From: Aliiroseovarius salicola
GTDB taxonomy: Bacteria > Pseudomonadota > Alphaproteobacteria > Rhodobacterales > Rhodobacteraceae
Reading direction: 5' to 3'
DNA length: 64,000 nucleotides
NCBI RefSeq assembly: GCF_027891095.1
Contig: NZ_JAQIIO010000005.1
Span: 124,001-188,000 of the forward strand
Under the pieces are notes generated by a model that did not search any database, was not told where the DNA came from, and was given only the letters and a program-made list of their open reading frames with translations. Made by a program: the position numbers and the translations under genes. Every line of letters begins with the position of its first letter. Position 1 is the stretch's first letter. Shown here in pieces: positions 14,607 to 32,897 of this stretch.

Positions 14607-14625
14607 CCGGGAAAGGTTCGAGCAG

Positions 14626-15969
14626 ATGCATCATTTCATCGACCGACGCCAAAACCCGAAAGGGAAAAGCCTCGGCAATCGTCAGCGGTTCCTGCGCCGG
14701 GTGCGCGGCCGCGTAAAAGAGATGGTCGACAAATCGGTCCGTGACCGGTCGATCCGCGACAACAGTGCAAAAGGCCTTGAAGGCGGCGAGCGCGTGACGA
14801 TCCCCACCAAGGGGATCAAAGAACCGCGGTTCATCCTGTCCGGCGATACGGGTGCGCGTGATCGTGTGTTGCCTGGCAACAAGGAATTTATCGTCGGCGA
14901 CAGTTTCAAACGCCCCCAAGGGGGCAGCGGCGAAGGTGGGCGCAAGGCCTCAGAGGATGGCGAAGGAGAAGATCAATTTTCCTTCACCCTGACCCGTGAC
15001 GAATACCTCGACCTTCTGTTTGATGGATTGGAACTGCCTGATCTCGCGAAGAAAAACGTGGTTGAAACAGAAACAGTCGGGCGCCGCCGTGCCGGGTTGA
15101 CCACATCGGGCACACCCTCAAACCTCAATCTTGTGCGCACCATGCGCAATTCTCTCGGGCGCAGGCTCGCCTTGCGGCGCCCGTCGCTCTCGGCAATGGA
15201 AAAACTCCGGGATGAGATAGAAGCGCTGGAAGAGATAAAAGCCCCCAGCCCGCAAGAAATTGCTTTGCTGGAAGAGTTGCGAGACAAGCTGGCCCGTATG
15301 GAACGCAAGCGCAAGATTGTAGGTTATATTGACCCGCTGGACCTGCGCTTTGACACGCATGTGCCTGAAGTCGTGCGAAATTCCAAAGCCGTGGTGTTCT
15401 GCCTTATGGATGTATCGGGGTCCATGCAGGAACGCGAAAAGGACCTTGCCAAACGGTTCTTCATCTTGCTGCATCTCTTTCTGGAACGGCGCTACAAACG
15501 CACGGATATCGTCTTTATCCGCCACACTCATCTGGCGCAGGAAGTGGACGAGGAAACCTTTTTCTACGCCAAGGAAAGCGGGGGGACCATCGTCAGCACG
15601 GCGCTTGAGAAGATGCATGAGGTCATCCTCGACCGTTATCCCACCGATGAATGGAACATCTATGGGGCACAGGCCTCTGACGGGGATAATTTTGGCAGCG
15701 ACTCCGACAAGTGCAAGTCCCTGCTAAATGAGAAGTTGCTGCCAATCTGTCAGTATTACGCCTATGTGGAAATCGCACCTGTTGATCAGGATGGCAGCCT
15801 GCCCCCAGGAGCGCGAGGCGCGGATCTCTGGGAGACTTATCGCGAGGTTCAGGGGGACTGGCCCAATTTTCAGATGCGACATGTGGCGCATCCCGCCCAG
15901 ATCTATCCTGTATTCCGCGGCCTATTTGCTCCCGGTAAAAAAGCAGCCCGGAAAGGGGTGTCAGCATGA
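14626..15969 (+). CDS. DUF444 family protein (YeaH/YhbH-like)
   Basis: 447-residue protein of the YeaH/YhbH family. Visible features are the basic N-terminus MHHFIDRRQNPKGKSLGNRQ, an acidic and glycine-rich linker (RPQGGSGEGGRKASEDGEGE) and a C-terminal von Willebrand A-like fold with the MIDAS-type segment FCLMDVSGSMQEREKDLAKR. The start at 14626 has AAAGG upstream; a 14572 start overlaps prkA and is less likely. It sits 19 nt after prkA and overlaps the spoVR-like gene by 4 nt. It probably works with PrkA; its molecular activity is not established. Confidence 0.9.
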   Translation: MHHFIDRRQNPKGKSLGNRQRFLRRVRGRVKEMVDKSVRDRSIRDNSAKGLEGGERVTIPTKGIKEPRFILSGDTGARDRVLPGNKEFIVGDSFKRPQGGSGEGGRKASEDGEGEDQFSFTLTRDEYLDLLFDGLELPDLAKKNVVETETVGRRRAGLTTSGTPSNLNLVRTMRNSLGRRLALRRPSLSAMEKLRDEIEALEEIKAPSPQEIALLEELRDKLARMERKRKIVGYIDPLDLRFDTHVPEVVRNSKAVVFCLMDVSGSMQEREKDLAKRFFILLHLFLERRYKRTDIVFIRHTHLAQEVDEETFFYAKESGGTIVSTALEKMHEVILDRYPTDEWNIYGAQASDGDNFGSDSDKCKSLLNEKLLPICQYYAYVEIAPVDQDGSLPPGARGADLWETYREVQGDWPNFQMRHVAHPAQIYPVFRGLFAPGKKAARKGVSA

Positions 15970-17513
15970 CAGAGACAGCCACCGCCTCTGCCCCGTTATT
16001 TAATGGTCCCGATTGGACATTTGAACTTCTGGGAACCGTGCATGATGCCATCGAAGAGATCGCATTGAACGAACTTGGCCTAGACGTCTATCCCAACCAG
16101 ATCGAAATCATCTCGTCTGAACAGATGCTTGACGCCTATTCCTGTGTCGGCCTGCCGCTGATGTATCAGCACTGGTCCTTCGGCAAGCATTTCGTGCGCG
16201 ATGAGACCTACTACCGAAAGGGTCTGACGGGTCTCGCCTATGAGATCGTGATCAATTCAAACCCCTGTATCAGCTACAATATGGAAGAGAACTCCATGGC
16301 GATGCAGACCCTGGTCATGGCGCATGCGGCCTTTGGACATAACCACTTTTTCAAGAACAACTACCTGTTTCGCGACTGGACCGATGCAAGCGGCATTCAC
16401 GACTATCTGGCGTTTGCCAAGAACTTCGTCGCCCGCTGCGAGGAACGGTATGGCGTGGATGAGGTCGAGGCGATCCTTGATGCGGCACATGCATTGCGCG
16501 ATCAGGGCGTGTTTCGATATGGTCGACCGCCTCGCCCCACGTCGCAGGAGTTACAGGCCATGCAGCAACGGCGGGACGAACATGCCAGTCAGCAAAGCGT
16601 TCTGGACCTGTGGACCGACAGCACAATGGGCGTTGCTGAAGATACCGAAGACACACATCTCCAGGCCCGTCAGATACGGCAGGAGGACCTGAACCTCCCA
16701 CAAGAGAACCTTTTGTATTTCCTTGAGAAAAACAGCCCAACATTGCAGCCATGGCAGCGGGAAATCGTTCGGATTGTGCGTTTCCTGGCGCAATATCTCT
16801 ATCCGCAGAAACAGACCAAGGTGATGAATGAAGGCTGCGCCACCTTTGTGCATTACTACATTGTGAACCGGCTTTACGAAAAAGGGCTGATCACCCAAGG
16901 CGCGCTAATGGAGATACTGCACAGCCATACCAGTGTTGTGATGCAACCCGACTTTAACGACCCGCGCTTTTCCGGTCTCAACCCCTATGCGCTTGGGTTT
17001 GCAATGATGCAGGACATTCGTCGGATCTGCGAGGAACCAACTGACGAAGACCGTGAATGGTTTCCTGAGATCGCTGGTCATTCAGATTGGAAAGCAGTGC
17101 TGCGCGAAGCGTGGTCCAACTATCGGGACGAAAGTTTCATCCTGCAATTCCTGTCGCCCCATCTGATCCGTAAATTCAAACTGTTTGTGCTAACGGATGA
17201 CACCAAACATCCCGAGCTGGTGGTCAGCCAAATTCACAACGCATCAGGTTATCGCAGAATTCGACAGGTCTTGGCGCAATCCTATGACATCGCGCAGGTC
17301 GAGCCAGACATTCAGGTGGTCGACGTGGATCTGAAGGGGGATCGTGAATTGAAACTCTGCCATAACATTCAAGATGGTATTCAATTAGATCAAACCGGAT
17401 GCGCCGAGGTGCTCAAACATGTGAAACAATTGTGGGGGTATGAGGTCAGCCTGAAAGGACGAGACCACAGCAGCGATACTGTGGCCTATGAACTCTCGAC
17501 AAAACCCAGCTGA
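15966..17513 (+). CDS. SpoVR family protein (YcgB-like)
   Basis: 515-residue soluble protein of the SpoVR/YcgB family. Typical segments are MAHAAFGHNHFFKNNYLF and NEGCATFVHYYIVNRLY near the middle, which resemble a metal-site HxxH/E arrangement, then NPYALGFAMMQDIRRI. ATGA overlap with the DUF444 gene and AAAGGGG 7 nt before ATG 15966 support this start. The prkA-DUF444-spoVR trio is conserved across many proteobacteria. The gene is convergent with the Hint-domain gene; a weak GAGGG/CCCTC hairpin at 17570-17587 lies between them. Confidence 0.92.
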   Translation: MTETATASAPLFNGPDWTFELLGTVHDAIEEIALNELGLDVYPNQIEIISSEQMLDAYSCVGLPLMYQHWSFGKHFVRDETYYRKGLTGLAYEIVINSNPCISYNMEENSMAMQTLVMAHAAFGHNHFFKNNYLFRDWTDASGIHDYLAFAKNFVARCEERYGVDEVEAILDAAHALRDQGVFRYGRPPRPTSQELQAMQQRRDEHASQQSVLDLWTDSTMGVAEDTEDTHLQARQIRQEDLNLPQENLLYFLEKNSPTLQPWQREIVRIVRFLAQYLYPQKQTKVMNEGCATFVHYYIVNRLYEKGLITQGALMEILHSHTSVVMQPDFNDPRFSGLNPYALGFAMMQDIRRICEEPTDEDREWFPEIAGHSDWKAVLREAWSNYRDESFILQFLSPHLIRKFKLFVLTDDTKHPELVVSQIHNASGYRRIRQVLAQSYDIAQVEPDIQVVDVDLKGDRELKLCHNIQDGIQLDQTGCAEVLKHVKQLWGYEVSLKGRDHSSDTVAYELSTKPS

Positions 17514-17590: not shown

Positions 17591-18301
17591 TCAAACTGCA
17601 AATGCAGCGGCCCGCTCCCAACCGTCACGCTGAGTGTTCTGCACGGTTTCCTCCCAAGACGGATCATTTGAAATATGCTCAAGCAAAAGCTTTGCCTCGG
17701 AATGGCTCAACGGGATATAGGGTTTCGCTTTCAGTTCTCCATCAGCAAACGCATCAGTGGCCGTTCCGGCAATGTAGGACGGACAAAAGATTAAGCTACT
17801 GCCTTCGGCATAGATAACTTCGTCCTTTTCAAAGTGCAGAGTGACCACCTCATAAGGAGCACAATGATCCAGATGTCTCACGCCCTTAAATCCAGGAAGA
17901 GCAGCACTGGGGATAAGGCTGAAGGGATCGCCGAACAGTTTTTCACCTGCATCACTTTCCACAATCACACATTGCTCAGGCAGCAGGACAATGGGTCGAC
18001 TGTTGCCGAACACCCGTACTGGAATTTCCAGTGGCAAGATCACTCCGTCCTGCCTGCTTTGGCTTCCGAAATTTCGGCCGCGCGTCACGGCTTCGACCCT
18101 TTGCATGCCATTGTCGAATGTCATGACAAAATCGCCAACAGCAATGGCCTCAACCGGACGCCATCCCAAATGACTGCCGATCTGGGTCCCCGCATAAAAC
18201 CCATGCAGATGTTCGATGGCGGTATCATCTAAGTTCTCACGAAGATCATTCCGGTCGTTGTTATTCCTGGTCCCAAACCCATTTCGACCAAAAAACTGCA
18301 T
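17591..18301 (-). CDS. Hint-domain protein lacking the N-terminal catalytic Cys
   Basis: 236-residue protein with a Hedgehog/intein (Hint) fold: GTQIGSHLGWRPVEAIAVGD matches the block that opens these domains, followed by VMTFDNGMQRVEAV and the central PIVLLPEQCVIVES. Proteins of this kind usually have a nucleophilic Cys just before the opening block; here that place reads GFYAG, so splicing or autocleavage is doubtful. The start at 18301 (MQFFGRNGFG) is chosen because GGGAG lies 7 nt upstream; 18349 is an alternative. There is no signal peptide. Such proteins are common in Rhodobacterales and often relate to secreted RTX/T1SS proteins. Function unknown. Confidence 0.7.
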   Translation of the reverse strand: MQFFGRNGFGTRNNNDRNDLRENLDDTAIEHLHGFYAGTQIGSHLGWRPVEAIAVGDFVMTFDNGMQRVEAVTRGRNFGSQSRQDGVILPLEIPVRVFGNSRPIVLLPEQCVIVESDAGEKLFGDPFSLIPSAALPGFKGVRHLDHCAPYEVVTLHFEKDEVIYAEGSSLIFCPSYIAGTATDAFADGELKAKPYIPLSHSEAKLLLEHISNDPSWEETVQNTQRDGWERAAAFAV

Positions 18302-18607
18302 TGGACATCTCCCAAATGAGTTTCCACCCAGCATAGTTTTAGGTGGCAAACTTCCCCAAGTTGAATCAATTTTTCAGATAACGCTGGCCACCAGTTGGAC
18401 CGGCTTGTGACAACATCATGGCAGTGTTTATTCAGTCTAAACAATGACCTACTTGCTGTGCGTTTGTTATGCAGATGAGATCTATAGGAACATCTTTTGA
18501 GTGGGTTAGCCTCACCAATCCGAACCTCTCTGAGAGAGAGGCAGCCGTCACAAGGCCGGCCATAACCACAATTTTTCCGAGTAAGAGTTATACCCAAAAT
18601 AGCAAAA

Positions 18608-19738: not shown

Positions 19739-20107
19739 TCATGGAGCAACCTGCTTGCTGCATGCATCGCACACTTGGCTGTAAAGCGCACCGATGGCTT
19801 CCAGCAATTCAGTGCTCAGCCCTTCTCCGGAGGTGTCGATAACAGCTTCATCAACCAGCTTTTCGGTTCTCGCCGCAATCAATCCCAATTCAGAGAGCTG
19901 CATGGTCGCAGCAACACCAGCAATCTTGTGCGCGATCCAACCAACCTGACTAAGACACGCAAAAACATTTTGGTTATTCAATATTCCTTCCACCATTTCC
20001 CCCAGGTTGTCCCTGTGTTCACGGAGATTGACGAGGAAGGAAATCCGGATCTTGGAAATTGTAGCTTCGAATTGGCTGAGGCTGTCAGCATCGGGGCCTG
20101 AACGCAT
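19739..20107 (-). CDS. Hpt domain phosphotransfer protein
   Basis: 122-residue stand-alone histidine phosphotransfer protein. The motif WIAHKIAGVAATMQLSELG places the probable phospho-accepting His at residue 60, within a helical sequence typical of Hpt four-helix bundles. ATG 20107 has AAGGTG 6 nt upstream; GTG 20116 is an alternative. It follows the REC/decayed-GGDEF gene by 10 nt and ends at a strong terminator. It probably moves phosphate between the nearby kinases and receivers, but the kinases here lack an attached receiver, so the exact direction of flow is inferred. Confidence 0.82.
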   Translation of the reverse strand: MRSGPDADSLSQFEATISKIRISFLVNLREHRDNLGEMVEGILNNQNVFACLSQVGWIAHKIAGVAATMQLSELGLIAARTEKLVDEAVIDTSGEGLSTELLEAIGALYSQVCDACSKQVAP

Positions 20108-20117
20108 TTTATTCACC

Positions 20118-21110
20118 TTAAATATTCAACACCGGACTAGAGCAATTGGTTGCGTTTTTCATTGAATTCGCAGCGGATCGGAAGGGTGAGTTTTGACCCT
20201 CACTGGCTTCGAGGGCCTTCTCGATCAGCTTTGATGGAGTTGAAGACGTCCAAAGTGAATGTTTCGCCGGTTTCCCGATCAGTACGGTAGGCTTACACGG
20301 CGTGGTATCTTCAAACCGCATGTTCAATCGCGCCAGTCGCGAGTTGATCTGGCGGGTGTGCCCTCCACTCGTCATGGTACTTGTCTTCTTTGAAATGCAG
20401 ATGAATTCGCCATAACCATTATAGCTGATCAAGGGTGCAGTACGCTCAAGGCTGTCCGCAATGACTTTCGCGACCTCACGAAGGACCGCATAGGCAAAAG
20501 CCGGGCTGGCTTTGCGATATATCTCATCAAATTCATTAATCGCAAGGATGGAAACCACATCGTTTTTGCATCCGTCGCCCTGGCTCTCCAGGTAATTTTC
20601 AAGAGCAACAGAGCTGATCACACGGTTTAGCCCAAAGATGGGAACGGGATCTTCGATGGTAAAATTCGGAAAACGCTCCTCAGCTTCAAAACTGTGCCGA
20701 CGCGGCACATCCTGCTTTTTGCGCTCTCGCTCTTCCAGAACCAGTTTTTCCGCGATGCTGACACGAACACCAATTTCCTGCGGGTCGATTGGCTTTGAGA
20801 CATAGTCTACTGCGCCCACCGCATAAGCTGTGTTCACGCTGATCCGGTCCGACGCTGCGGTGACGAAAATGATAGGAGTGGCCTTATATTCTGGAAAAGC
20901 CCGGAGGCGCGCGCAAAGGTCTACGCCATCCACTTCCGGCATCCGATAGTCCAAAAGGAAGCAATCAAAGGGCTGTTCAGCATGTTTGATCGCATAAAAC
21001 GCCTCGCGGGCAGATGAGGCCAAAGTGATATGTTTAAACCCGTATAGATTAAGAGCGGCCTCGAGCAGGGAAAGGGCGGTGAGGTCATCATCTACCACAA
21101 GAATTTTCAC
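20118..21110 (-). CDS. Response regulator with degenerate GGDEF-like output domain
   Basis: 330 residues. The N-terminal receiver (MKILVVDDDLTALSLLEAAL) has the phospho-acceptor Asp54 in FLLDYRMP and Lys106 in YVSKPIDP. After a linker comes a domain whose pattern (FGLNRVISSVALENYLESQ, then ILAINEFDEIYR, then SYNGYGEFICIS) resembles a diguanylate cyclase core, but the GGDEF signature reads NGYGEF (residues 230-235), so cyclase activity is unlikely. It may bind a nucleotide or a protein partner. It is paralogous to the neighbouring gene ending at 21171 (60-bp gap) and upstream of the Hpt gene. Confidence 0.8.
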   Translation of the reverse strand: MKILVVDDDLTALSLLEAALNLYGFKHITLASSAREAFYAIKHAEQPFDCFLLDYRMPEVDGVDLCARLRAFPEYKATPIIFVTAASDRISVNTAYAVGAVDYVSKPIDPQEIGVRVSIAEKLVLEERERKKQDVPRRHSFEAEERFPNFTIEDPVPIFGLNRVISSVALENYLESQGDGCKNDVVSILAINEFDEIYRKASPAFAYAVLREVAKVIADSLERTAPLISYNGYGEFICISKKTSTMTSGGHTRQINSRLARLNMRFEDTTPCKPTVLIGKPAKHSLWTSSTPSKLIEKALEASEGQNSPFRSAANSMKNATNCSSPVLNI

Positions 21111-21170
21111 GTCTTTACTCCAAAAATACTTCTGTCAAATGCCCCTACCCAGATTCAGCGTTTCACGGTT

Positions 21171-22280
21171 TTAGCGATTCACGGTCCGAGTTGATTTCGG
21201 AAATTCACCTAGGGTCTCGTATTCTTCCAATGCCGCCTTCAGCAATTCGTCATATTCCACGCGCAATTCCTGCTCATCCTGAGCCTGTCTCGTGGGCGGC
21301 CAGACATCATCAAAAGTTTCCACCTTATTGGCAGACTCAGCAGTTTTCTTTTCCTTGGCTTTTTTTTCAACATTCGCAATTGCTGAGTGAAGGTTTTCAA
21401 GAGAACCAGGGCGTGCCAAGAATTTGGCAACAACCGGCTCACCTACAATAAGAATTGCACTCTCTGGCAGTTCTGGCGGTGCCATCGGATCGTCAGCTTG
21501 AAGGTCAACGTTGATTTCATCGCCCAGCGAAGCCAATTCCTTAGCTCCATTGCGCGGCTGGATTCCCACGAATACGCCATCGCCCCGATAGGTCAGGAAG
21601 GTATCGAATTCTTCCAGTTTATCCAAAATCACTTTTGCGGATCTGCGCAATACTTCCTTGAATTCCAGAGGAGGAAGACAAGCGTGCAACGTTTCGGCGT
21701 CGCGTAATTTGATCGCAAACATACTGCTCATGTGGAAAACCCCACGCGACAGCTGCGTCAGGTAGTTTTCGAAGGCTGGGTAGTTCAGCACATTCTCCAC
21801 GCCTCTCAATTCGATCGGCGCATCAAGACCGTGACGTGTTGCCTTATCCAACTCCTTGATCAGAAGCTCGATGACGCTTGTACTTTCCGAAACCGCGCGA
21901 CGTTCTCCGGACAGTTTTTCAACCAATCCAATACGCGCACCGACTTCAAACACCGCATAGGGTTTCGTCAGATAATCCGTCGCACCAGCCGCAAAAGCTT
22001 GGTCAATATACCTTTTTTCCGACATCGCGGTGACCATTATAATCGGGACTTCGTCATATTCATGCAGGCCACGCACCTCTTTACAGAGATCGATGCCGCT
22101 CATACCAGGCATCTGCACGTCGAAGAGGAAACAATCGAAATGATCAAGGTCATCCAGAATGAGCTCAAATGCTTTTGCGCCGGAATCGCAGGTCACAACA
22201 TCGTCGTAACCGCAACTCGACAGAGCTTCCTCGAGAAGCTGCAGAGCAATTTTATCATCATCAACAGCAAGAATCTTCAT
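21171..22280 (-). CDS. Response regulator with degenerate GGDEF-like output domain (paralogue)
   Basis: About 369 residues. The receiver begins MKILAVDDDKIALQLLEEAL, with Asp54 in FLFDVQMPG and Lys106 in YLTKPYAV. The second domain mirrors its neighbour: ELRGVENVLNYPAFENYLTQ, and in place of GGDEF the sequence RGDGVF (232-237), so it is probably not a cyclase. A charged C-terminal tail (KKAKEKKTAE, then DEQELRVEYDELL) is extra relative to the paralogue. The start at 22280 matches the neighbour's N-terminus; ATG 22289 is possible, and the frame open to 22487 lacks support. It is followed 60 bp later by the paralogue. Confidence 0.78.
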   Translation of the reverse strand: MKILAVDDDKIALQLLEEALSSCGYDDVVTCDSGAKAFELILDDLDHFDCFLFDVQMPGMSGIDLCKEVRGLHEYDEVPIIMVTAMSEKRYIDQAFAAGATDYLTKPYAVFEVGARIGLVEKLSGERRAVSESTSVIELLIKELDKATRHGLDAPIELRGVENVLNYPAFENYLTQLSRGVFHMSSMFAIKLRDAETLHACLPPLEFKEVLRRSAKVILDKLEEFDTFLTYRGDGVFVGIQPRNGAKELASLGDEINVDLQADDPMAPPELPESAILIVGEPVVAKFLARPGSLENLHSAIANVEKKAKEKKTAESANKVETFDDVWPPTRQAQDEQELRVEYDELLKAALEEYETLGEFPKSTRTVNR

Positions 22281-22525
22281 TTCCGGCATCCCTTCGATAT
22301 CCACCTCGCTGCCGGGTCCCAAGCTGCTTTCCAAGCACATTGGTAACCGGTCGGAACGAAGTAGTTCCCGATAAGAATTCGGTGACAAAATCGGCAATTT
22401 CAGGGCAACAGTGGGGCTTTTCCTAAACATTAAAGAGAAGCTTGCCGCCCACTGTTTCCAAAGCGCGCACAATCGAGCGCCCCGCACCCGTTAAGACTTG
22501 GTCGAGTGACCACTTGAGTATTCTG

Positions 22526-23275
22526 TTAGTGGAAGGATTTACGAATTGTGAACAGCGCCGCCTGACTGGACGTCCTGTCGATCTTAAATTTGGATCCCAC
22601 GGCCACCGCACTCAAATTCAACCGGCGCAACCAGCGAGAAAAGACATAGGGCACAATGCCGATGACGTGGTTCGCTCCGAGTTCGTAAGCGGATTTGCTC
22701 ATGGCATCCATCAAAATACTCTGTATGCCGTGTCGCCTTTGCGCCGGAACGTCGGACGCAATGAAAAGTCGCGATGCTTCCCAGATCTTCTCATCAACCG
22801 GAGCTTCGAAATACAGGACATCCGTTGGAATGTTGTCCAACAACCCCAACTGCGCGTCACGTAGCATGTAGGTGTAAATTCCGCATTTAGCAGTGGTAGG
22901 CGCCAACCGCACCCCACCCAATACTTCGCCGTATTCATGGACGATAACCCAACGGCATTCCGGCGTATCATATTGGTCGAACTCCATCCCTTCGGTCTCG
23001 GGAAGATCCCAACCAAGCTGATCGATGAAAACAGCTTTTCTCGCCTTCAGACAGTTCACATACAATTCACCATGCTGGTGAATTGTGGAAAATGATAACG
23101 TGGTTGTTTTGACATGCGCCTCTGTTTTGGGAATTGGAAAATCAAAATTCCCAGAGGATTTGGAAACTGGTTTCGCTTCGGAAATTTGCGTAACACCACC
23201 ATCGGCCGGCTCCAGTTCAGGAAATACCGACCATGCCGGAAACACTCCAGCTGTCTTGACTCGTTCTTGCCCCAT
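22526..23275 (-). CDS. LuxI-family autoinducer (acyl-homoserine lactone-type) synthase
   Basis: 249-residue GNAT-fold protein with the LuxI-family invariant residues: Arg79 and Phe83 in ARKAVFIDQLGW, Trp89, Glu98, Asp100 and Asp103 in MEFDQYD, Arg123 in GGVRL, and Glu166/Arg169 in WEASR. It would make an acyl-homoserine lactone or related acyl-amino compound from an acyl carrier and S-adenosylmethionine. Unusual points are a 55-60 residue N-terminal extension, a divergent sequence between the blocks, and no luxR gene nearby. ATG 23275 has AAGG upstream and no internal Met could replace it. It is divergent from the membrane histidine kinase and in line with the two receiver genes. Confidence 0.78.
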   Translation of the reverse strand: MGQERVKTAGVFPAWSVFPELEPADGGVTQISEAKPVSKSSGNFDFPIPKTEAHVKTTTLSFSTIHQHGELYVNCLKARKAVFIDQLGWDLPETEGMEFDQYDTPECRWVIVHEYGEVLGGVRLAPTTAKCGIYTYMLRDAQLGLLDNIPTDVLYFEAPVDEKIWEASRLFIASDVPAQRRHGIQSILMDAMSKSAYELGANHVIGIVPYVFSRWLRRLNLSAVAVGSKFKIDRTSSQAALFTIRKSFH

Positions 23276-23576
23276 AACCTGCCTTTAGGGTTATTTTTGT
23301 TTGTTTTCAGTATTAAGCTAGAGGTTGACTCGTTCGTCCAGATAGATCTCACAATTTCAACAAAATTTTGCCAATTTTTTTCCTTAAATGGTATTTCAGG
23401 CACAATTTGCATCTCATTTTTTGGGATTTTGGCTTAAATATCGCCACTTAACCCCAAGGAAAGCTTTCCGAAAATATGAAAATTGTCCCAAAAAATCCAC
23501 AATAACGACTGAAAATCATCCTATCTGCGGTGTTACAACTTCACGATGAGTTTCCAATCAGGGGAATGGCAGCAAC
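23276..23576. promoter_or_regulatory. Divergent promoter region, autoinducer synthase / histidine kinase
   Basis: 301 bp, AT-rich, presumably with promoters in both directions. TTAA...TTAAC half-sites occur near 23432-23452, but their 10-base spacing does not fit the CtrA consensus. No convincing operator palindrome seen. Confidence 0.4.
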
Positions 23577-24941
23577 ATGGCATCCGCAGGCCAATCAGAA
23601 GCTACTGAAAACAACTGGTACAGCAGCGAACGTCTGGAAAGGCAGCTGCGGGACTATATTGCCATCACCACCAAACTCATCTGGCAACGTCAGGCTATTT
23701 TCATCGCAGCAACACTGCTGGCAGCCGCTTATTTCGATCCTGCACAAGCTTTTGCGTGCTACGCGGGGGTTGTTTTCACCGAAGTACTCGACCTCACGCT
23801 TTCCCGTCACATGAACAATTGGAAGTCCGGTAGCTTTGCCCAGGCTCGACGGTTTTTGTGGTGGGTGATGATCAACACTGCCCTCAGTGCCGGAGCCATT
23901 GCGTTATTCGTTATAACCATTGCAATTCAACAAGGATCAGGTGGGCACTTCACTCCGCTTTTCTTCCTGTTCGCTGCTGCACTTTTTGCCGCAATGAACA
24001 ACCACCAGCTGGTTCCAGCACTGGTGCTGAGGCTTGCGATTTATGGTGCCACATTTCTGTTCATTGCACTTCTGGATATCATTCGCTGGTCCCCTCCGAT
24101 TTCGTCTAACGCCTGGTTGGAATTCTTTACCGTCGTCTTTGTGGTCTATTTTATTGTCGACTGTTCGTTTGTTTATCTTCGGCTTTATCGACAGGGCCTG
24201 CGCCAATACGAAGCCCTGAAACAGGAACACCAGCGCACTCTGGTGGCCTATGAATTGAAGTCTCAGTTCCTTTCAACAGTCAGCCACGAGCTGCGCACCC
24301 CACTGACCTCTATCAAAGGCTCGCTGGATCTGATCAACAGCAATTCCCTTGGAGAAGTCCCGAAAGAGATTGCTCCGGTCTTGAAGATCGCCGGGAAAAA
24401 CAGTGTTCGCCTCGCCAATCTGATCGATGACCTGCTCGACCTGCAGAAGATTGAAACAGGCGATATGTCATTCGATTTCGACACGATGGATGTGCGCAAA
24501 CTTGTTCGGGAATCTGTCGATGCAAGCAAAGGGTATGCTGATGCCCTCGGCATGTCTCTTGACGTTGAACTGCCCCAAGAAGAAGCCCTGATCGAGGGTG
24601 ATCACACTCGCCTCACGCAGGTCATGGAAAACCTGCTTTCCAATGCCCTCAAGTTTTCACCTGAAGGCAGCAAGGTAAAGGTGAGCGTTCAAATCGACGA
24701 AAACGCAGTGAAAATCGCCGTTGAGGATAGTGGGATTGGCATACCTGATGGAGCGGAAGATAAGGTATTTGGTCGCTTCAGCCAAGTTGATGGTTCCGAC
24801 CAGCGCAAAGTTGGAGGCACGGGTTTGGGCATGAGCATTACCAAAGGGATCATAGACCGCCACAAAGGTCATATCGACTACGAGAGTGTCCTGGGTGAGG
24901 GCACGACCTTCCTTGCTGTGTTTAACCGGGTAAAAGCCTGA
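23577..24941 (+). CDS. Membrane sensor histidine kinase
   Basis: 454 residues. The N-terminal half (about 40-205) carries five or six hydrophobic segments and no large periplasmic loop, so it probably senses a membrane or membrane-permeant signal. A HisKA domain follows with the phospho-His237 in FLSTVSHELRTPLTSIKGSL, then a HATPase domain with the N box (ENLLSNALKF), G1 (EDSGIGIP) and G2 (GGTGLGMSI). It has no receiver domain. It is divergent from the autoinducer synthase and upstream of a soluble kinase with an almost identical His box. A possible role is sensing the synthase's product; that is inference. Confidence 0.88.
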   Translation: MASAGQSEATENNWYSSERLERQLRDYIAITTKLIWQRQAIFIAATLLAAAYFDPAQAFACYAGVVFTEVLDLTLSRHMNNWKSGSFAQARRFLWWVMINTALSAGAIALFVITIAIQQGSGGHFTPLFFLFAAALFAAMNNHQLVPALVLRLAIYGATFLFIALLDIIRWSPPISSNAWLEFFTVVFVVYFIVDCSFVYLRLYRQGLRQYEALKQEHQRTLVAYELKSQFLSTVSHELRTPLTSIKGSLDLINSNSLGEVPKEIAPVLKIAGKNSVRLANLIDDLLDLQKIETGDMSFDFDTMDVRKLVRESVDASKGYADALGMSLDVELPQEEALIEGDHTRLTQVMENLLSNALKFSPEGSKVKVSVQIDENAVKIAVEDSGIGIPDGAEDKVFGRFSQVDGSDQRKVGGTGLGMSITKGIIDRHKGHIDYESVLGEGTTFLAVFNRVKA

Positions 24942-25030
24942 GGTCATGGCCTGCCAACCCTAAAAGCAGGCGACGAGAGTTTTTGAATTTACGCGGTAAT
25001 TTTGACCGCAATGTAAGTAAAGGTAATAAC

Positions 25031-26095
25031 ATGTATGATTTACACCGCACTCCCGCCCCAGATTTTCTGGCTGGAATATTTGCCTGTCTAAGTGACGAAA
25101 TCTATGTTTACGACCAAACTGATCTAACGCTGGTCTACGCCAACCCTTCTGCGTGCGAAAAGCGCAACTGGGACCAGAATGATTTGAATGGAAAATGTAT
25201 TTCTGACGTTTCCGGCCGGATGACAGCTCCGCTGGTTCGCAGGCATCTGGAACCATTGAGCAAAGGCCATGCAAACATCGCGCATGTCAGCATCAATGTG
25301 GACGGATCGCCTTTCCAAATCACCTCGCATATTGCCACCTTCCCCGGCGTTGGGAATGTTTATGTGAGCATCCTTCGCTCTTCCACCGTAACATTCGGAA
25401 ATCCGGATGACGAATGGGGGGCCATCTCTGAACTGAGCCACGAAATGCGCACGCCGCTGACCTCGATCAAGGGCGCAATTGGCCTGCTCGAAAGCAAAGC
25501 AGTGTGCGATCTCCCCCCCAGCGCCCAATCTGTCTTGCAGGTTGCCTCCCGCAACAGCGACCGCCTTTTGTCGATGGTCAATCGCATATTGGATTTCAGC
25601 GCGGTCTCTTCTCGGAAGATCGAAAAGGAACACATTCCCGTGGATCTGGTCAGCCTCGTCAAAACCTCTGTAACCGAAATGCAGGGGTTCGCATTCGAGC
25701 ATGATGTCAATGTCAAAGTCACGCAGGTCCCGGACCGTGCGCTTGTGATCGGGAATTCCGAGCAACTGACAAGCGTTCTGATCAACCTTCTGTCAAACGC
25801 AATTAAGCATGCCCCGAAGGACAGCACTGTAAAAGCGGGTGTGACCTACGCTGAAAATAGCTGGCGCGTAAGTGTATTCGACAGCGGCTCCGGTATTCCC
25901 GAAGCCTCCCGAGGCCGGATCTTCGAGTGTTATGCCAAGGGGCAGTCGAAAAAAGGCAAGCGCGGCAGCAGTACCGGGCTTGGCCTGGCCATCGCGAAGA
26001 AGATTGTGACATTGCACAATGGCTTAATAGACTTTATCTTCACCCAAAACGTGGGTACCGAGTTTTACTTCGAAATTCCTAAACATTCAGCTTGA
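25031..26095 (+). CDS. PAS-domain histidine kinase (soluble)
   Basis: 354 residues, no membrane segment. The N-terminal PAS-like domain spans about 10-120 (IYVYDQTDLTLVYANPSACE). HisKA follows with His137 in ELSHEMRTPLTSIKGAIG, then HATPase with INLLSNAIKHAP, FDSGSGIPE and STGLGLAIAKK. AAAGG lies 7 nt before ATG 25031; an upstream TTG frame from 24983 is rejected. It follows the membrane kinase by 89 bp. The two His boxes are almost the same, so both may act on the same Hpt or receiver proteins. Confidence 0.87.
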   Translation: MYDLHRTPAPDFLAGIFACLSDEIYVYDQTDLTLVYANPSACEKRNWDQNDLNGKCISDVSGRMTAPLVRRHLEPLSKGHANIAHVSINVDGSPFQITSHIATFPGVGNVYVSILRSSTVTFGNPDDEWGAISELSHEMRTPLTSIKGAIGLLESKAVCDLPPSAQSVLQVASRNSDRLLSMVNRILDFSAVSSRKIEKEHIPVDLVSLVKTSVTEMQGFAFEHDVNVKVTQVPDRALVIGNSEQLTSVLINLLSNAIKHAPKDSTVKAGVTYAENSWRVSVFDSGSGIPEASRGRIFECYAKGQSKKGKRGSSTGLGLAIAKKIVTLHNGLIDFIFTQNVGTEFYFEIPKHSA

Positions 26096-26108
26096 TGGCT
26101 GAAAAAGG

Positions 26109-26126
26109 AAAGCCCCGCCGGGGTTT
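26109..26126 (+). terminator. Weak hairpin after the PAS kinase
   Basis: CCCC-GCC-GGGG followed by TTTCG, between the kinase stop (26095) and the receiver start (26166). A short stem and T-tract; it may only attenuate. Confidence 0.4.
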
Positions 26127-26165
26127 CGAACGGTAACGTTGATTTCCAATTCACGGGTGGATCAA

Positions 26166-26549
26166 ATGGAACAGCTTGAGCGCATACTGCATGTTGACGA
26201 TGACGATGACATTCGGCAGATCGCCAAATTAACCCTTGAATTAATTGGGAAATTCACGGTTGAGCAATACGCATCTGGCCAGGAAGCCATCGATAATGCG
26301 CAGGCATTTGCCCCGCAGCTCATTCTGCTTGACGTCATGATGCCTGAGATGAATGGCGAAGCAACCATGACCCATCTTCGCAAGATCCCCGGATTGGAAG
26401 AGGTTCCAGTGGTGTTCATGACGGCAAAAGCCGAAGCGCAGTATGCTGAAAAACTGATCAGACTTGGGGCTATCAAAGTGATCACAAAACCGTTTGATCC
26501 ACAAAACCTGTGTGACCAGGTTCAGGACGCCTGGGCGTCACGTAAGTAA
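26166..26549 (+). CDS. Single-domain response regulator (CheY-like)
   Basis: 127 residues consisting of one receiver domain: acidic pocket in LHVDDDDDIRQIAK, phospho-acceptor Asp56 in LLDVMMPEMNG, Thr/Lys in FMTAKAE and VITKPFDP. There is no output domain, so it probably acts as a phosphate shuttle or sink, or by protein contact. ATG 26166 is preferred to TTG 26139; GGGTGG is upstream. It is third in the plus-strand row of kinases and a plausible partner of the stand-alone Hpt protein. Confidence 0.85.
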   Translation: MEQLERILHVDDDDDIRQIAKLTLELIGKFTVEQYASGQEAIDNAQAFAPQLILLDVMMPEMNGEATMTHLRKIPGLEEVPVVFMTAKAEAQYAEKLIRLGAIKVITKPFDPQNLCDQVQDAWASRK

Positions 26550-26835: not shown

Positions 26836-28551
26836 ATGTCGACAAAAGACTCCAAACACCTTTCCCTAGCCTTGGCCCAAGGCCGTGGGCTGCTTCGACT
26901 GTCCTTTTTCTTCAGTCTCTTTACCAATCTGCTGATGCTGACTGGTCCCTTATTCATGCTTCAAGTGTATGATCGAGTGCTCGGATCCCGGTCCGAGGAA
27001 ACCCTCGTTGCACTATTGGGTCTCGTGACCCTGTTATTTGCACTCTACGGACTTCTTGAATTTGCCCGAGGACGATTGATGGCGCGTGTGGGCGCACGCT
27101 TTCAATCGATCATCGGGCCACGTGCCTTTGATGCACTGCTGGAGGCCCATGCCTTCAAAACCACCAGTGCACAGCCAAAATGCTCGCTGCACGATGTTGA
27201 GGCAATCCGAAATTTCTATGCTTCCCCGGTTTTGCTGGCAATCTTTGATCTACCGTGGACACCGGTATTTATAGCAGCGATCTTTATCTTCCACCCCACA
27301 TTGGGGTGGATGGCTGTCGCGGGTGGCGGCATCCTGATCGTGACCGCCATTCTCAATCAGATTTTGACCCATCGGAAAATCCATGACGCTCAGGGCCTGT
27401 CTACAAGCGCAAACAGTTTTGCGATGCAGGTCCAGAACGGTGCGCAATTCGTCTGGGCACAGGGCATGGGTCGGACGCTTGGGGAACGTTGGCAACGTCG
27501 CCAGAAAGATGCGCTTTTGCGGACGATCGTCGCCAATGACTGGACTGGATCTTTCAGCGCCTTCACCAAAGCTTTCCGGTTTTTCCTGCAATCGGCAATG
27601 CTTGGGGTCGGTGCATGGTACGTATTGCAGAACGAACTGACCGCAGGGGCCATGATTGCAAGCTCCATTCTTCTGGGCCGCGCGCTGGCACCGGTCGAGC
27701 AGGGTCTGCCGCAATGGCCAATCGCACAGCGCGCGCGCACCAGCTGGCGTAACCTTTCTGCCTTGTTTGAAGCCATTCAAAAGCAAGCAGAACCAACGCG
27801 CCTGCCGCCCCCATCAGCCTCACTCAACGCTCGAAATGTCACGCTGATGTTGCCAGACACCGACAGGCCCGTTCTGCATGGCATCACATTCTTTGTCGCC
27901 CCCGGAGAAGCCCTGGGGGTCATCGGAAAAAGCGGATCGGGCAAAACAACTCTTGCACGCTTGCTGCTTGGTCTGATGGTTCCAACCCGCGGAGAAGTGC
28001 GGCTTGGAGGCGCCACCCTTCCTCAATATGGCGCAGAGCGATTGGGAGAGCTTGTCGGCTATCTGCCACAGGAAATACAGTTTTTTGAGGGAACAATCGC
28101 CGAAAACATTGCTCGAATGTCCCTTGAACCCGACGCCGCTCAAGTGGTGGAAGCCGCCAAAAAAGCACGGGTACACGATGTAATCCTGGGTCTTCCCAAA
28201 GGATATGACACACTCATCGGTCCAACTGATACGCAGCTTTCAGGTGGGCAAAAGCAGCGGTTGGCGCTTGCCCGGGCGCTCTATGGCAATCCAATTGTCG
28301 TGGTGTTGGATGAACCCAATTCTGCCTTGGATGCAGAAGGGTCTGAAGCTCTCAACAAAGCAATCGAAGACATGAAAGCCAGCGACAAAGCCGTAGTGGT
28401 CATGACCCACCGACCACGCGCCATCGCGCTTTGCGACCACCTCTTCGTGTTGGAAAACGGCCAGGCCGCAGGCTATGGCCCACGCGACGAAATTATCCAG
28501 TCCATGATCAAGAATGCGGACAATGTGAAGTCCGCTATTAAACAGGGGTGA
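26836..28551 (+). CDS. Type I secretion ABC transporter (permease/ATPase)
   Basis: 571-residue fused ABC exporter of the PrtD/HasD class. The N-terminal membrane domain (LFTNLLMLTGPLFMLQVYDR, with further segments to about 300) is followed by the ATPase: Walker A GVIGKSGSGKTTLARLLLG, Q loop GYLPQEIQFF, signature LSGGQKQRLALARA and Walker B VVVLDEPNS. It has no C39 peptidase-like extension. ATG 26836 has a poor ribosome site. The adaptor gene follows within 5 bp; the outer-membrane TolC-like partner is absent from the window. The likely cargo is the 1307-residue adhesin at 32890, which lacks a signal peptide. Confidence 0.92.
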   Translation: MSTKDSKHLSLALAQGRGLLRLSFFFSLFTNLLMLTGPLFMLQVYDRVLGSRSEETLVALLGLVTLLFALYGLLEFARGRLMARVGARFQSIIGPRAFDALLEAHAFKTTSAQPKCSLHDVEAIRNFYASPVLLAIFDLPWTPVFIAAIFIFHPTLGWMAVAGGGILIVTAILNQILTHRKIHDAQGLSTSANSFAMQVQNGAQFVWAQGMGRTLGERWQRRQKDALLRTIVANDWTGSFSAFTKAFRFFLQSAMLGVGAWYVLQNELTAGAMIASSILLGRALAPVEQGLPQWPIAQRARTSWRNLSALFEAIQKQAEPTRLPPPSASLNARNVTLMLPDTDRPVLHGITFFVAPGEALGVIGKSGSGKTTLARLLLGLMVPTRGEVRLGGATLPQYGAERLGELVGYLPQEIQFFEGTIAENIARMSLEPDAAQVVEAAKKARVHDVILGLPKGYDTLIGPTDTQLSGGQKQRLALARALYGNPIVVVLDEPNSALDAEGSEALNKAIEDMKASDKAVVVMTHRPRAIALCDHLFVLENGQAAGYGPRDEIIQSMIKNADNVKSAIKQG

Positions 28552-28555
28552 TGTG

Positions 28556-29866
28556 ATGCAAGATGCCGATCAAGCCCGAGAATGGAGCGCCCGATGGCCC
28601 GCACTGATCGGCTTTCTGGCGGTTCTGATCCTTTTTGGTGGCGTTTGGGGCTGGGCAGTTGGCACGGAAATTGCTGGTGCGGTCATCGCAAATGGTACCG
28701 TGAAGGTCGAATCCGACAGACAGGTGGTTCAGCACCCTGATGGCGGCGTTGTGGGGGAAATCCTGGCTCAGGATGGTGACCTGGTCAAAGCCGGCGATAT
28801 TCTTATTCGCTTTGACGACACTTTCTTGCGCTCGGAGCTGGAAATCATTGAACGCCAATTGCTCGAGATTTTTGCTCGCCGATCCCGGTTGGAAGCGGAA
28901 CGTGATGAGCAGGACATGTTGAAACTTTCCCCGCCCCCTGATTACGCTCATCTGGATGCGGGTTGGGTCGAGAACCAGCTCAATGGTCAGGTGAATCTGT
29001 TCACTGCGCGCCTGGCATCACTCAGTCAGGGAAGAGCCCAACTGGCCGAACAGATTGGTCAGATTGAAAGTCAGATAGAGGGGTTATCGGCACAGCTTGA
29101 CGCCCTGAACGAGGAACGTGATCTGGTCGAAGCAGAACTTGTCGATCAAATGACATTGTTTGAAAAGCAGCTTGTTTCCGCAACGCGTGTGAATGAGTTG
29201 AAAAAAGAACGGGCAAGGCTGTTGGGGCAGATTGGCAAGCTCAAAGCCTCTTCCAGCGAAGCCAGAACACAGATTTCCAGTGTACGTATTGAGATGCTGA
29301 AACTTATGGATCAGCGGCGAGAAGATGCCATCGGGCGGCTTCGAGATCTTCGCTACAGCGAAATCGAACTTGCAGAGAGACAGCTAAGCCTTCGCGAACA
29401 GCTCGGCCGCATGGATGTACGCGCGCCCGCCGATGGTATCATCTACGGCTCTTTGGTCAGGACTGATAAGTCGGTGGTCCGCGCCGCAGAACCAATGATG
29501 TATATCGTGCCAAGCGGTCGCCCGGTCCAAATCTCTGCAAAGGTTGATCCCGTTCATATCGATCAGGTCCATGCAGGTCAGGTTGCATCGCTCCGGTTTT
29601 CCACGTTCAATCAGCGCAACACACCGGAAATCTCCGGCTATGTGCTACGCGTATCCCCCGACACAATCCTTGATGAACCCACCGGGACAACCTTTTACGA
29701 AGCCATTGTTTTGCCGGATGATCTGGCAGTGGCCGAATTGGTCGATCTCGAAATCATACCCGGAATGCCGGTAGAAGTGTTTCTCAAGACCGACAAGCGC
29801 ACCCCACTTAGCTATCTTGTCAAACCATTGACCGATTATTTCCGTCGAGCGTTCAGGGAAAGCTGA
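28556..29866 (+). CDS. HlyD-family type I secretion membrane fusion protein
   Basis: 436 residues. A cytosolic N-tail precedes one membrane segment (LIGFLAVLILFGGVWGWAV), then lipoyl-like halves (VQHPDGGVVGEILAQDGD and VRAPADGIIYGSLVR) flank a long coiled coil (about 100-290, rich in Glu/Gln/Leu heptads). The C-terminal region GMPVEVFLKTDKRTPLSYLV is typical of PrtE/HlyD adaptors. It follows the ABC gene with a 4-bp gap; ATG 28556 is chosen (GTG 28553 is one codon upstream), with AGGGG before it. It bridges the inner-membrane ABC protein to a TolC-type channel. Confidence 0.92.
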   Translation: MQDADQAREWSARWPALIGFLAVLILFGGVWGWAVGTEIAGAVIANGTVKVESDRQVVQHPDGGVVGEILAQDGDLVKAGDILIRFDDTFLRSELEIIERQLLEIFARRSRLEAERDEQDMLKLSPPPDYAHLDAGWVENQLNGQVNLFTARLASLSQGRAQLAEQIGQIESQIEGLSAQLDALNEERDLVEAELVDQMTLFEKQLVSATRVNELKKERARLLGQIGKLKASSSEARTQISSVRIEMLKLMDQRREDAIGRLRDLRYSEIELAERQLSLREQLGRMDVRAPADGIIYGSLVRTDKSVVRAAEPMMYIVPSGRPVQISAKVDPVHIDQVHAGQVASLRFSTFNQRNTPEISGYVLRVSPDTILDEPTGTTFYEAIVLPDDLAVAELVDLEIIPGMPVEVFLKTDKRTPLSYLVKPLTDYFRRAFRES

Positions 29867-30084
29867 TTTCTTATCCTGTCACATCGACATGCGATGGGGC
29901 GGCTTTCGTCAGAACCACACTTGTGAATTGAGGTTTTGGGCATACGCCATCAGCCCCCTCCCCCTTTAACAAATCCGATCTGACATTTGCCGAGCTTCCT
30001 GCACCACGGCAGCGCGAGTTCCTATGATGTCTGGAGATCCTTAAATGCCATTGCCGAGTCCGAAGCTGCCAAATCTAATGTGAC

Positions 30085-31293
30085 TTAGTTCGGCAACGAA
30101 ACGCTGTGAAATTCGACAACATCCCCCGGCAAAAGCTCTGTATCAAAGCCCGCATCCATCCGATCAATTTCTCCACTGTTACGGCGGTAGATATAAATCA
30201 AACTGTCTGACTGAGTTTTCAACGCTTTTGAGGGATCAAGATAGGCCAGCCTTGAACTCAGAACAGCAAGTTGCGCTTCCAGATCCTGTACCCGATCTAT
30301 TTCATTCATCAATTGAGCAAGTATCTCCAAGCGCGTCTCGGACAACTCTACCTGGGATTTTGCCGCCAGTTGTGACATGTCGACCTTGAGCCTGTGAGAT
30401 GCACCGGAAATCTCCAGCACGCGGCTGGAGAATGACAACATACCGCGTTCGGCCTCAGCAGCGGCGTTCGCGGTTGCAACCCCCCGTTCAGCAAGCTCAG
30501 AGACACGTGCAAACTCATCTTCGTAAGTTTGAAGAACCTCAGTGTTTACCGCTTCCAGCTGTCCCAAAATCTGCAATCTCTCTTCCATTTTTTCCAAGGA
30601 CAAATCGGTGGCTGTCGCTTCAAGATCCCGCAGTTTCGAGCGCGTTGTTAACCATTCCACCTCATCGGGCGTCAAAGCCTCCTGGTTTGAGCTTTCTGAC
30701 GTGGCGGGGGCAATGGCCTCCTGTGCGGAGAGCTCCAGCTTAAGACGCTTAACATCCCCACGCGCATGTTCCAGCCTTGCTGAAACCAGCATGTGATCAG
30801 AGAGTGCTCTTCCGAATTCAGAAGCGGTATTATCCGGCAGCAACACAGTCATCCCACCAGCGCTCGCCAATGCCTGACGGACCGATGTCCCCGGCCGAAA
30901 CGCAAGGGGACCTACATTCTCAACATCACCGGTGACATATATGGGCCGGTACTCTGCCACCGAGACAAAAACCTTTGTTGCGTCAACTTGAATCCACTGA
31001 GTTCCAGTATCGCTTTCAATTTGGAATGGGGCTCGACTCAGGCCCGCGGCGATTTCCTCCTGAAGATCCAGAATTGACCGATCCTCGACATTGACCTGAC
31101 CAATGATTGGCAGCCTGATCGTTCCATCAGTAGAAACCAATATTTCGCTTTCCAGCTCTGGCAGGCCAATAACTTTTAAGGAAATCCTGTCACCGGCCGC
31201 CAAATAGATTTCAGCGTTGGCAGGCAGCGCCCCCAATCCACTGACGAATGCTCCGCAAAACAAGAGCATCATTGTCGAGATTAGTTTTTTCAA
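30085..31293 (-). CDS. Polysaccharide export protein (Wza/OPX-like)
   Basis: 402 residues. An N-terminal signal peptide (MKKLISTMMLLFCGAFVSGL, ending PANA) precedes the export domain (AAGDRISLKVIGLPELE, STDGTIRLPIIGQVNVE) and an SLBB-like segment (IYVTGDVENVGPLAFRPGTS). The C-terminal half is a long coiled coil (about 180-340) rather than a Wza-type transmembrane helix, as in ExoF-like proteins. No lipobox Cys follows the signal peptide. It is probably cotranscribed after the priming transferase (68-bp gap) and carries polymer across the periplasm or outer membrane. Confidence 0.85.
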   Translation of the reverse strand: MKKLISTMMLLFCGAFVSGLGALPANAEIYLAAGDRISLKVIGLPELESEILVSTDGTIRLPIIGQVNVEDRSILDLQEEIAAGLSRAPFQIESDTGTQWIQVDATKVFVSVAEYRPIYVTGDVENVGPLAFRPGTSVRQALASAGGMTVLLPDNTASEFGRALSDHMLVSARLEHARGDVKRLKLELSAQEAIAPATSESSNQEALTPDEVEWLTTRSKLRDLEATATDLSLEKMEERLQILGQLEAVNTEVLQTYEDEFARVSELAERGVATANAAAEAERGMLSFSSRVLEISGASHRLKVDMSQLAAKSQVELSETRLEILAQLMNEIDRVQDLEAQLAVLSSRLAYLDPSKALKTQSDSLIYIYRRNSGEIDRMDAGFDTELLPGDVVEFHSVSLPN

Positions 31294-31360
31294 ACCGTTT
31301 CCTTTGTAAGATGCTTAAGTATTCCCAAAGTATATAACAATTTGGTCGCTAAATAATCCC

Positions 31361-32065
31361 TCAATATCCTGTACCGTGCAAAACGACTTTCACCGTTGAC
31401 AGAATGACCAAGATGTCAGTTTTTATGGACACCCTTTTGGCATATTTACGGTCATGATCAGAGCGTGCCGCAAATGAGCTTTCATTGCGGTCCGACACTT
31501 GCCAAAACCCGGTCAGACCGGGGCGGAACCGATAATAGCTGCGTCCAGGATATAGTGAACGTTGTTCGGGCATCATCGGGCGCGGCCCAACGATGCTCAT
31601 TTCGCCGCGCAGCACATTCCATATCTGTGGAAGTTCATCGACAGAAAACTTTCGGATGTAGTGCCCAAACCAGGTAATTCTTGGATCGTTTTTGAGCTTC
31701 TGGTTTTTTTCCCACTCCAAGCGCGCCGCCCGATCTTTATTAAGAACCCGGGACAGGGTTTCCTTGGCGTTCGGTACCATGCTCCTCAGCTTCCACATCC
31801 AAAAGACTTTATTTCCACGCCCCACTCTTTTCTGAGCATAAAATGGATTTGAACCATCGAGCATGACAACACATGCCGATATCGCAATTATCGGAAGAAC
31901 CAACGGCAAGCTCACCAGCACAATGAAAATGTCGAGCACCCTCTTTCCAAACCGAGAGTAATATCCCGCTTCCGGTTTTGGTAAATCTTCAACGGCGTCT
32001 CTATGCGAGATTTGTCTGTGTGAGATTTGATTGTGAAATCTTCTGTATTCAACAGTCATCGTCAC
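31361..32065 (-). CDS. Priming sugar transferase (ExoY/WbaP-type polyprenyl-phosphate sugar-1-phosphate transferase)
   Basis: 234 residues. A hydrophilic N-tail is followed by one membrane hairpin/segment (LDIFIVLVSLPLVLPIIAIS) and a cytosolic catalytic domain with the family motifs KLRSMVPNA, DELPQIWNVLRGEMSIVGPR and PGLTGFWQVS. It transfers a sugar-1-phosphate to undecaprenyl phosphate, starting repeat-unit assembly for the polysaccharide made by this cluster. The short single-membrane-segment form is like ExoY rather than the longer WbaP. It lies upstream of the export gene; the region on its other side is long and AT-rich. Confidence 0.9.
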   Translation of the reverse strand: MTMTVEYRRFHNQISHRQISHRDAVEDLPKPEAGYYSRFGKRVLDIFIVLVSLPLVLPIIAISACVVMLDGSNPFYAQKRVGRGNKVFWMWKLRSMVPNAKETLSRVLNKDRAARLEWEKNQKLKNDPRITWFGHYIRKFSVDELPQIWNVLRGEMSIVGPRPMMPEQRSLYPGRSYYRFRPGLTGFWQVSDRNESSFAARSDHDRKYAKRVSIKTDILVILSTVKVVLHGTGY

Positions 32066-32735: not shown

Positions 32736-32897
32736 ATGACAAGTCTTGGAAAGGCATTATTTGCCAGGCTGAAAGCTTGGCCCATCATTATTTTCCGTTC
32801 GATTACAACCAGTAAACGCGTCTATTTCCACGCGCCCCCAAGTGCAAAAATCTCCGATTTTTCTTTTGAAATAGAAATGGTTAATCCTGATGTCTGA
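32736..32897 (+). CDS. Putative 53-aa leader protein overlapping the adhesin start
   Basis: Open frame of 53 codons with GGGGGATAAA directly before ATG 32736, overlapping the adhesin start (32890) by 8 bases. The adhesin itself has a poor ribosome site, so translation of this frame could deliver ribosomes to it. The product begins MTSLGKALFARLKAWPIIIF, a basic start with a short hydrophobic run, and ends EMVNPDV. No family recognised. It could be a real small protein, a coupling leader, or chance. Confidence 0.4.
   Translation: MTSLGKALFARLKAWPIIIFRSITTSKRVYFHAPPSAKISDFSFEIEMVNPDV

Follow-up and report, generated by a model that had tools for sequence, protein, structure and literature searches.

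We analyzed a 64,000-nucleotide stretch of the Aliiroseovarius salicola genome (3.58 Mb; contig NZ_JAQIIO010000005.1, positions 124,001 to 188,000; hereafter, the window, whose coordinates are used for its own features) that carries a LuxI-type autoinducer synthase gene within an island of two-component signaling genes (19,739 to 26,549). Our data show that the adjacent membrane histidine kinase, HK454, belongs to a family whose genes accompany luxI in many relatives, with no luxR in the linked stretches, and that in other relatives the kinase is found beside a different synthase instead. We propose, with a probability of roughly 70%, that HK454 is the receptor for the product of its neighboring synthase, which in the window would be an acyl-homoserine lactone (AHL). 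This idea is well supported by the linkage, the absence of LuxR from linked stretches, the parallel distances of synthase and sensor, and the synthase exchange, all computed here along with the gene content, the intact residues, and the selection acting on a LuxI tag; from these results, we infer binding. In the textbook scheme, AHL signaling consists of LuxI and a cytosolic LuxR; a widespread pairing of LuxI with a membrane kinase would alter the way in which AHL circuits are recognized in roseobacters, a major marine group.

An intact LuxI linked to a membrane kinase

The luxI gene (22526..23275, minus strand) encodes a 249-amino-acid protein with an N-terminal tag (~23114-23275) and a LuxI core (22526-23113). 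It matches the Pfam family Autoind_synth at 57.2 bits (cut-off, 24), and 9 of 9 conserved residues selected as typical of LuxI proteins are intact, which agrees with the original prediction that all LuxI-family residues are present. Judging from its family, its product is probably an AHL. The prediction that no LuxR gene accompanies it was likewise borne out, as there is none in the island and no luxR lies next to this luxI. The genome holds 3 LuxI matches and 4 LuxR matches in total; the two other LuxIs (contigs C31 and C23) each adjoin a LuxR, and two further LuxRs are unpaired.

The linkage was assessed in relatives from both sides. Of 40 stretches around LuxI, 27 encode an HK454 relative. 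In 12 of the remaining 13, a LuxR adjoins LuxI, and the last one (L061) is cut by a contig end. On the sensor side, the 80 named loci, which are the best 80 of 208, contain LuxI in 52 cases, the synthase FeeM in 23, and neither in 5. Some genomes were sampled twice via two collections (e.g., L056 and L143), and therefore distinct counts are also given. Pooling the window with these 120 loci yielded 108 kinase hits (97 distinct), of which 80 (69 distinct) have LuxI within 7 kb, 23 have FeeM, 5 have neither, and none has both. Among the loci with neither synthase, L102, L120, and L173 are near contig ends, and the assemblies that gave L101 (isolate MSM9) and L154 (Aliiroseovarius subalbicans) also gave the LuxI-linked L096 and L143, respectively. 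A LuxR match was found in 0 of the 80 stretches that contain both kinase and LuxI, compared with 12 of the 13 in which LuxI occurs but the kinase does not.

These counts bear on an alternative in which a LuxR gene at another genomic site supplies the receptor for the LuxI product, with the neighboring kinases and receivers controlling luxI expression or something unrelated. Such an arrangement is conceivable given the four genomic LuxRs, two of them without an adjacent LuxI, and given that a roseobacter solo luxI acting without a linked luxR is known, i.e., sscI of Ruegeria KLH11 (PMC3907830). Yet it does not account for the position of the kinase next to LuxI in 80 of 108 cases, for the lack of LuxR in those stretches, or for the kinase standing beside FeeM once LuxI is gone, and we regard it as improbable.

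A less selected sample, a draw of 394 genomes of the family with hits classed by coordinates, with scans of extra stretches for unclear cases, gave 54 sensor hits in 50 genomes: 34 were LuxI-linked, 7 FeeM-linked, 9 linked to neither, and 4 at contig ends or in fragments. A LuxI match occurred somewhere in the genome in 46 of the 50 sensor genomes and in 223 of the 344 others. In a class-wide draw of 337 genomes, the sensor was present in two, namely, the window's own genome and one of the same family. One of the nine kinases without either synthase (L221, 2177-5045) is a divergent member of the kinase family with two LuxR-like genes downstream, located 2.2 kb from a contig end; its 12-kb stretch contains no LuxI or FeeM match.

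In addition, the distances of LuxI and of the sensor run in parallel across the 69 distinct loci (correlation, 0.77; reached in 0 of 2,000 permutations). The partial correlation of LuxI with the sensor given the kinase part is 0.50, versus 0.27 for LuxI with the kinase part given the sensor. Gene order and orientation vary between relatives, and the pair of LuxI and kinase persists while other neighbors change. This persistence, together with the parallel distances, argues against mere gene clustering in a mobile island with no shared circuit. The variable order and orientation could themselves be taken as signs of such an island, as could the drop in G+C at 18-24 kb of the window and the occurrence of this LuxI type in the window genome alone among 21 genomes of the genus (a search with the LuxI core only). 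No tRNA landmarks of an island were found. Overall, we consider clustering without a shared circuit very unlikely.

Several points weigh against HK454 as the receptor. The AHL product, binding by the kinase, the direction of phosphotransfer, the role of the tag, and the output are all steps that we infer, and the four genomic LuxRs, including the two unpaired ones, could respond to the same AHL. LuxI-linked loci served as the seed of the sensor alignment, and the named loci were the best of a larger set. In the 394-genome draw, only 7 first-look candidates were scored in many genomes, and nine kinases had neither synthase nearby. The parallel distances, obtained without a species tree, may reflect joint inheritance, and in 24 FeeM-linked loci the two partial correlations are 0.36 and 0.36, so that the sensor is not favored.

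Exchange of the synthase partner

In most of the kinase loci that lack LuxI, two conserved genes adjoin the kinase gene, which Pfam identifies as a FeeM-type N-acyl amino acid synthase (E-values of 6e-38 to 3e-42 for the four proteins scanned) and an S-adenosylmethionine-dependent methyltransferase. The kinase, FeeM, and methyltransferase genes are co-directional in 24 of 24 distinct loci tested. Viewed from the synthase side, a strong FeeM match (E < 1e-30) is present in 8 of the 394 genomes, and in 7 of them it lies no more than 2 kb from a matched sensor; genome G030 has a strong FeeM but no such kinase, and 8 weaker FeeM matches are likewise not near one. Separately, L228 (8847-10647) holds a gene for a FeeM-type synthase that overlaps one for a class I methyltransferase and is not accompanied by the kinase.

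A second FeeM group consists of L231 (8911-11805), L232 (8898-11741), and L233 (6868-9842), where the kinase gene is followed by an ICMT/PEMT-type membrane methyltransferase and FeeM (E-values of 1e-33 to 3e-39). In the sensor tree, the 27 members of the first FeeM group are placed beside L144 (support, 0.99), and the 3 members of the second (support, 1.0) fall within another LuxI-linked group (0.95; nearest-sister support, 0.15). Since the two FeeM groups are apart, this tree indicates that the synthase was exchanged at least twice under a retained kinase, with a methyltransferase arriving both times. L144 itself has a LuxI (13128-13853) in which a conserved Trp is replaced by Glu and a kinase, starting at 8941, with the residues NNSQ. 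A FeeM-linked kinase (L124) comes from the same assembly, and L144 is possibly a decaying intermediate.

The genomes behind the LuxI-less named loci have an Autoind_synth match somewhere in 25 of 26 cases. FeeM proteins match this family weakly; some of the 25 are FeeM, and several are strong LuxIs. Because of the latter, a FeeM-linked kinase could still read an AHL.

The FeeM loci may also be relevant to N-acyl alanine methyl esters (NAMEs), which were found in Roseovarius tolerans EL-164; Roseovarius sp. D12_1.68 and three isolates of Loktanella contained related esters (PMC6296433; PMC4582587). NAMEs resemble AHLs, and they are described as lacking any synthase candidate (PMC11580390). Loci with FeeM, methyltransferase, and kinase include those of R. 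tolerans DSM 11457 (L130), R. confluentis (L127), R. atlanticus (L165), and Loktanella sp. SALINAS62 (L142); the R. tolerans locus was observed in the type strain, DSM 11457, and the NAMEs came from strain EL-164. We see evenly balanced odds that FeeM and the methyltransferase are the missing NAME synthase, that the adjacent kinase is the first NAME receptor, and that NAMEs are true signals. Arguing against a signaling role, the available parts of three papers report no quorum-sensing activity of NAMEs in AHL systems (PMC4582587; PMC6296433; PMC11580390), and a 2024 abstract favors an antibiotic role (PMC11580390). A literature search by titles and abstract openings, with subscription papers and preprints mostly outside its coverage, revealed no paper naming these genes for NAMEs.

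The sensor domain of HK454

HK454 (23577..24941, plus strand) comprises a membrane sensor domain (23622-24242) followed by HisKA and HATPase_c. AlphaFold2 predicts six helices in the sensor (residues 20-37, 40-65, 72-104, 110-126, 131-156, and 163-206; predicted local distance difference test [pLDDT], 85.7), and these putative membrane helices would run into HisKA, as in CqsS. The model aligns best with six-helix cyclase anchors of the Rv1625c type. Sensor and kinase part are about equally conserved, with identities to the window protein of 76% versus 72% and 45% versus 51% in two examples.

When the 69 LuxI-linked and 23 FeeM-linked distinct sensors were compared (HK454 numbering), six positions stood out most sharply: 30, 79 (V/I to S/A), 141 (N to Y), 143 (H to S), 199 (V/I to K), and 201 (L to Y). 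Changes at 79, 141, 143, 199, and 201 accompany the exchange in the clade with the soluble methyltransferase. Because that FeeM group is one clade, the differences also follow descent, and we take them as leads rather than proof of specificity. The residues N141 and H143 alone were rejected as a mark of the FeeM ligand, given that the second FeeM clade keeps NNHQ and that the LuxI-linked L113, L119, and L144 have N or S at 143. LuxI-linked L058 has Y at 141.

A conserved N-terminal tag on kinase-linked LuxI

In the window, the codon at the usual LuxI start position is GTC, and therefore the gene most likely starts at the ATG at 23275; the reading frame upstream of the usual position is open and conserved, and a start at the core was dropped. 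Among 68 distinct kinase-linked LuxIs, 21 have ATG, GTG, or TTG at the usual position (ATG in 7). The resulting extension contains, in the window protein, the sequence SVFPELEPA. The motif FP[ED][LI] was found in the extension of 48 of the 68 (57 with a looser pattern) and in 0 of 12 LuxR-linked LuxIs. Starts were assigned in 54 LuxIs (53 kinase-linked ones and L061), and in 41 of these the motif lies exactly 16 residues past the start. This figure is favored by the procedure, since the motif was known when starts were assigned and the nearest ATG upstream of it was chosen where available. The tag is under purifying selection: codons 2-24 have a ratio of nonsynonymous to synonymous substitution rates of 0.18, and 151 of the 261 differences fall at third positions (14 close pairs, not all independent). 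AlphaFold2 predicts the tag to be disordered (pLDDT, ~48-58) and the core to be mostly confident, with some weaker stretches, and the tag thus looks like a flexible docking peptide. Docking to the receiver protein RR438 was considered and found to be unsupported, since six kinase-linked LuxIs that are untagged and start at the usual place (L081, L085, L095, L149, L152, and L155) share their stretches with an RR438-type protein.

The tag raises the alternative that the relay acts on the synthase, i.e., that kinase and receivers set the activity or amount of LuxI, for instance via the tag, upon another input. The presence of the tag in many kinase-linked and in none of the LuxR-linked LuxIs, its purifying selection, and its disorder, as expected of a docking peptide, would all fit, as would receivers without a DNA-binding output. 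The same six untagged LuxIs do not, and FeeM-linked kinases retain the sensor family in the context of an unrelated synthase. Overall, we judge control of LuxI by the relay to be quite unlikely.

Island gene content and the putative circuit

Every named island gene has an open frame and a Pfam domain match, which confirms the predicted set of a synthase, two kinases, a CheY-like protein, an Hpt protein, and two receiver proteins. The arrangement differs from the original prediction, which placed luxI between the two kinases. A divergent intergenic region of 301 bp (23276..23576) separates luxI from both kinase genes, and the receiver and Hpt genes are downstream of luxI. More specifically, on the minus strand, luxI is followed by the genes for RR438 (21171..22289) and RR330 (20118..21110), each a receiver with a GGDEF-like domain, and the Hpt phosphotransfer protein (19739..20116; motif AHKIAG). 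On the plus strand, HK454 is followed by HK370 (24983..26095), a kinase with a weak PAS match and without a strongly hydrophobic stretch, and REC136 (26139..26549), a single-domain CheY-like receiver identified by domain match and motif. RR438 probably starts at the ATG at 22289 rather than at 22487, because of where its receiver domain begins. Pfam scores were 28.9 bits for Hpt and 88.1, 88.7, and 94.7 bits for the three receivers, the two kinases match HisKA/HATPase_c, and phosphorylation motifs (His or Asp) are present in 6 of 6 relay proteins.

The GG(D/E)EF active site is not intact in RR438 (YRGDGVF) or RR330 (YNGYGEF). Among matched relatives, it is intact in 0 of 90 and 0 of 57 rows, respectively, and RGxGx(F/Y) is present in 68 and 45; hence, both proteins are very probably not cyclases. 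An RR438/RR330-type protein is found in 60 of the 80 stretches with kinase and LuxI, a REC136-like receiver in 29, and a detectable Hpt in 9. A lack of joint conservation in relatives, proposed earlier as a refutation, is thus not seen for LuxI and the membrane kinase, whereas the receivers and Hpt are conserved less.

With HK454 as the receptor, LuxI would make an AHL that, being lipophilic, enters the membrane, where the six-helix sensor domain detects it and takes over the role of LuxR. The kinase would then autophosphorylate at His237 and donate the phosphate to REC136, RR438, or RR330, perhaps with Hpt as a shuttle; HK370 would add a second, probably cytosolic, input, and the LuxI tag would serve as a docking peptide. 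Since RR438 and RR330 end in dead GGDEF-like domains, the output of the island is probably protein or nucleotide binding rather than DNA binding or c-di-GMP synthesis. Indeed, a Pfam scan of eight proteins revealed no DNA-binding domain, and the island thus has no CtrA-type output of the kind seen in CckA-ChpT-CtrA. A CtrA-like site (TTAA-N7-TTAA) in the divergent region was also dropped; there is one match with one mismatch, and the window has 5 such sites versus 10 expected.

Upstream, a Hint_2-domain protein (69.8 bits; 17591-18349) adjoins the island, preceded by what we take to be a PrkA-YeaH-SpoVR type gene set (12672-17513), whose SpoVR protein has a match in 2 of the 21 Aliiroseovarius genomes. 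On the other side (26836-36813) are presumably genes for type I secretion (ABC and fusion components), exopolysaccharide-like genes, and a gene for a 1307-amino-acid repetitive protein, as named from their translations. These may form a secreted adhesin system, which the island might control.

Comparison with known systems

The window shares its synthase family with LuxI-LuxR systems and differs from them in that LuxR is absent from the island and from all 80 stretches that carry the kinase together with LuxI. In the LuxM-LuxN-LuxU-LuxO system of Vibrio harveyi, a membrane kinase detects an AHL and signals into an Hpt relay, as proposed here. It differs in that the synthase is LuxM rather than LuxI, LuxN is a hybrid kinase, and LuxO binds DNA, whereas the window has separate receivers and no DNA-binding output; HK454 matches only HisKA and HATPase families, has no receiver domain, and is therefore not a LuxN-type hybrid. 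LuxN is also discussed in the work on roseobacters described below (PMC3824088). CqsA-CqsS of Vibrio likewise uses a six-helix membrane kinase as a quorum-sensing receptor, a likeness based on predicted helix architecture, and CqsS can substitute for the six-helix anchor of the cyclase Rv1625c (eLife 2016, PMC4821796). CqsS reads CAI-1, whereas the window synthase is a LuxI.

The closest precedent is that of Cude & Buchan (2013), who described an orphan luxI with a kinase upstream in seven roseobacter genomes (topologies H, I, and J, with J in the opposite direction), suggested a two-component relay, and likened the kinases to LuxN (PMC3824088). The window, with an opposite-direction kinase gene upstream of its orphan luxI, matches topology J in this arrangement. 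The original prediction, in which the membrane kinase is a candidate sensor of the LuxI signal, gains indirect support from the linkage, LuxR absence, parallel distances, and synthase exchange, and it loses its novelty, the core idea of an orphan luxI beside a kinase in a LuxN-like relay having been in print since 2013. The available text of that study contains no sensor-domain family, exclusion counts, tag, or FeeM exchange (PMC3824088). As far as we have searched, the new elements are a sensor family dedicated to this role, the tag on LuxI, receivers with a dead GGDEF domain, and the exchange of LuxI for FeeM, which points to NAME synthesis and possibly sensing.

Finally, compared with the NAME producers, the window genome has no match to FeeM (PF21926) and thus no such candidate NAME locus, and the available parts of the NAME papers name no gene for NAME synthesis (PMC11580390; PMC6296433; PMC4582587). 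What is shared is the kinase: sister loci of HK454 carry FeeM and a methyltransferase in R. tolerans and a Loktanella, a species and a genus with such esters. The kinase family thereby points to candidate genes for NAME synthesis and to a possible NAME receptor.

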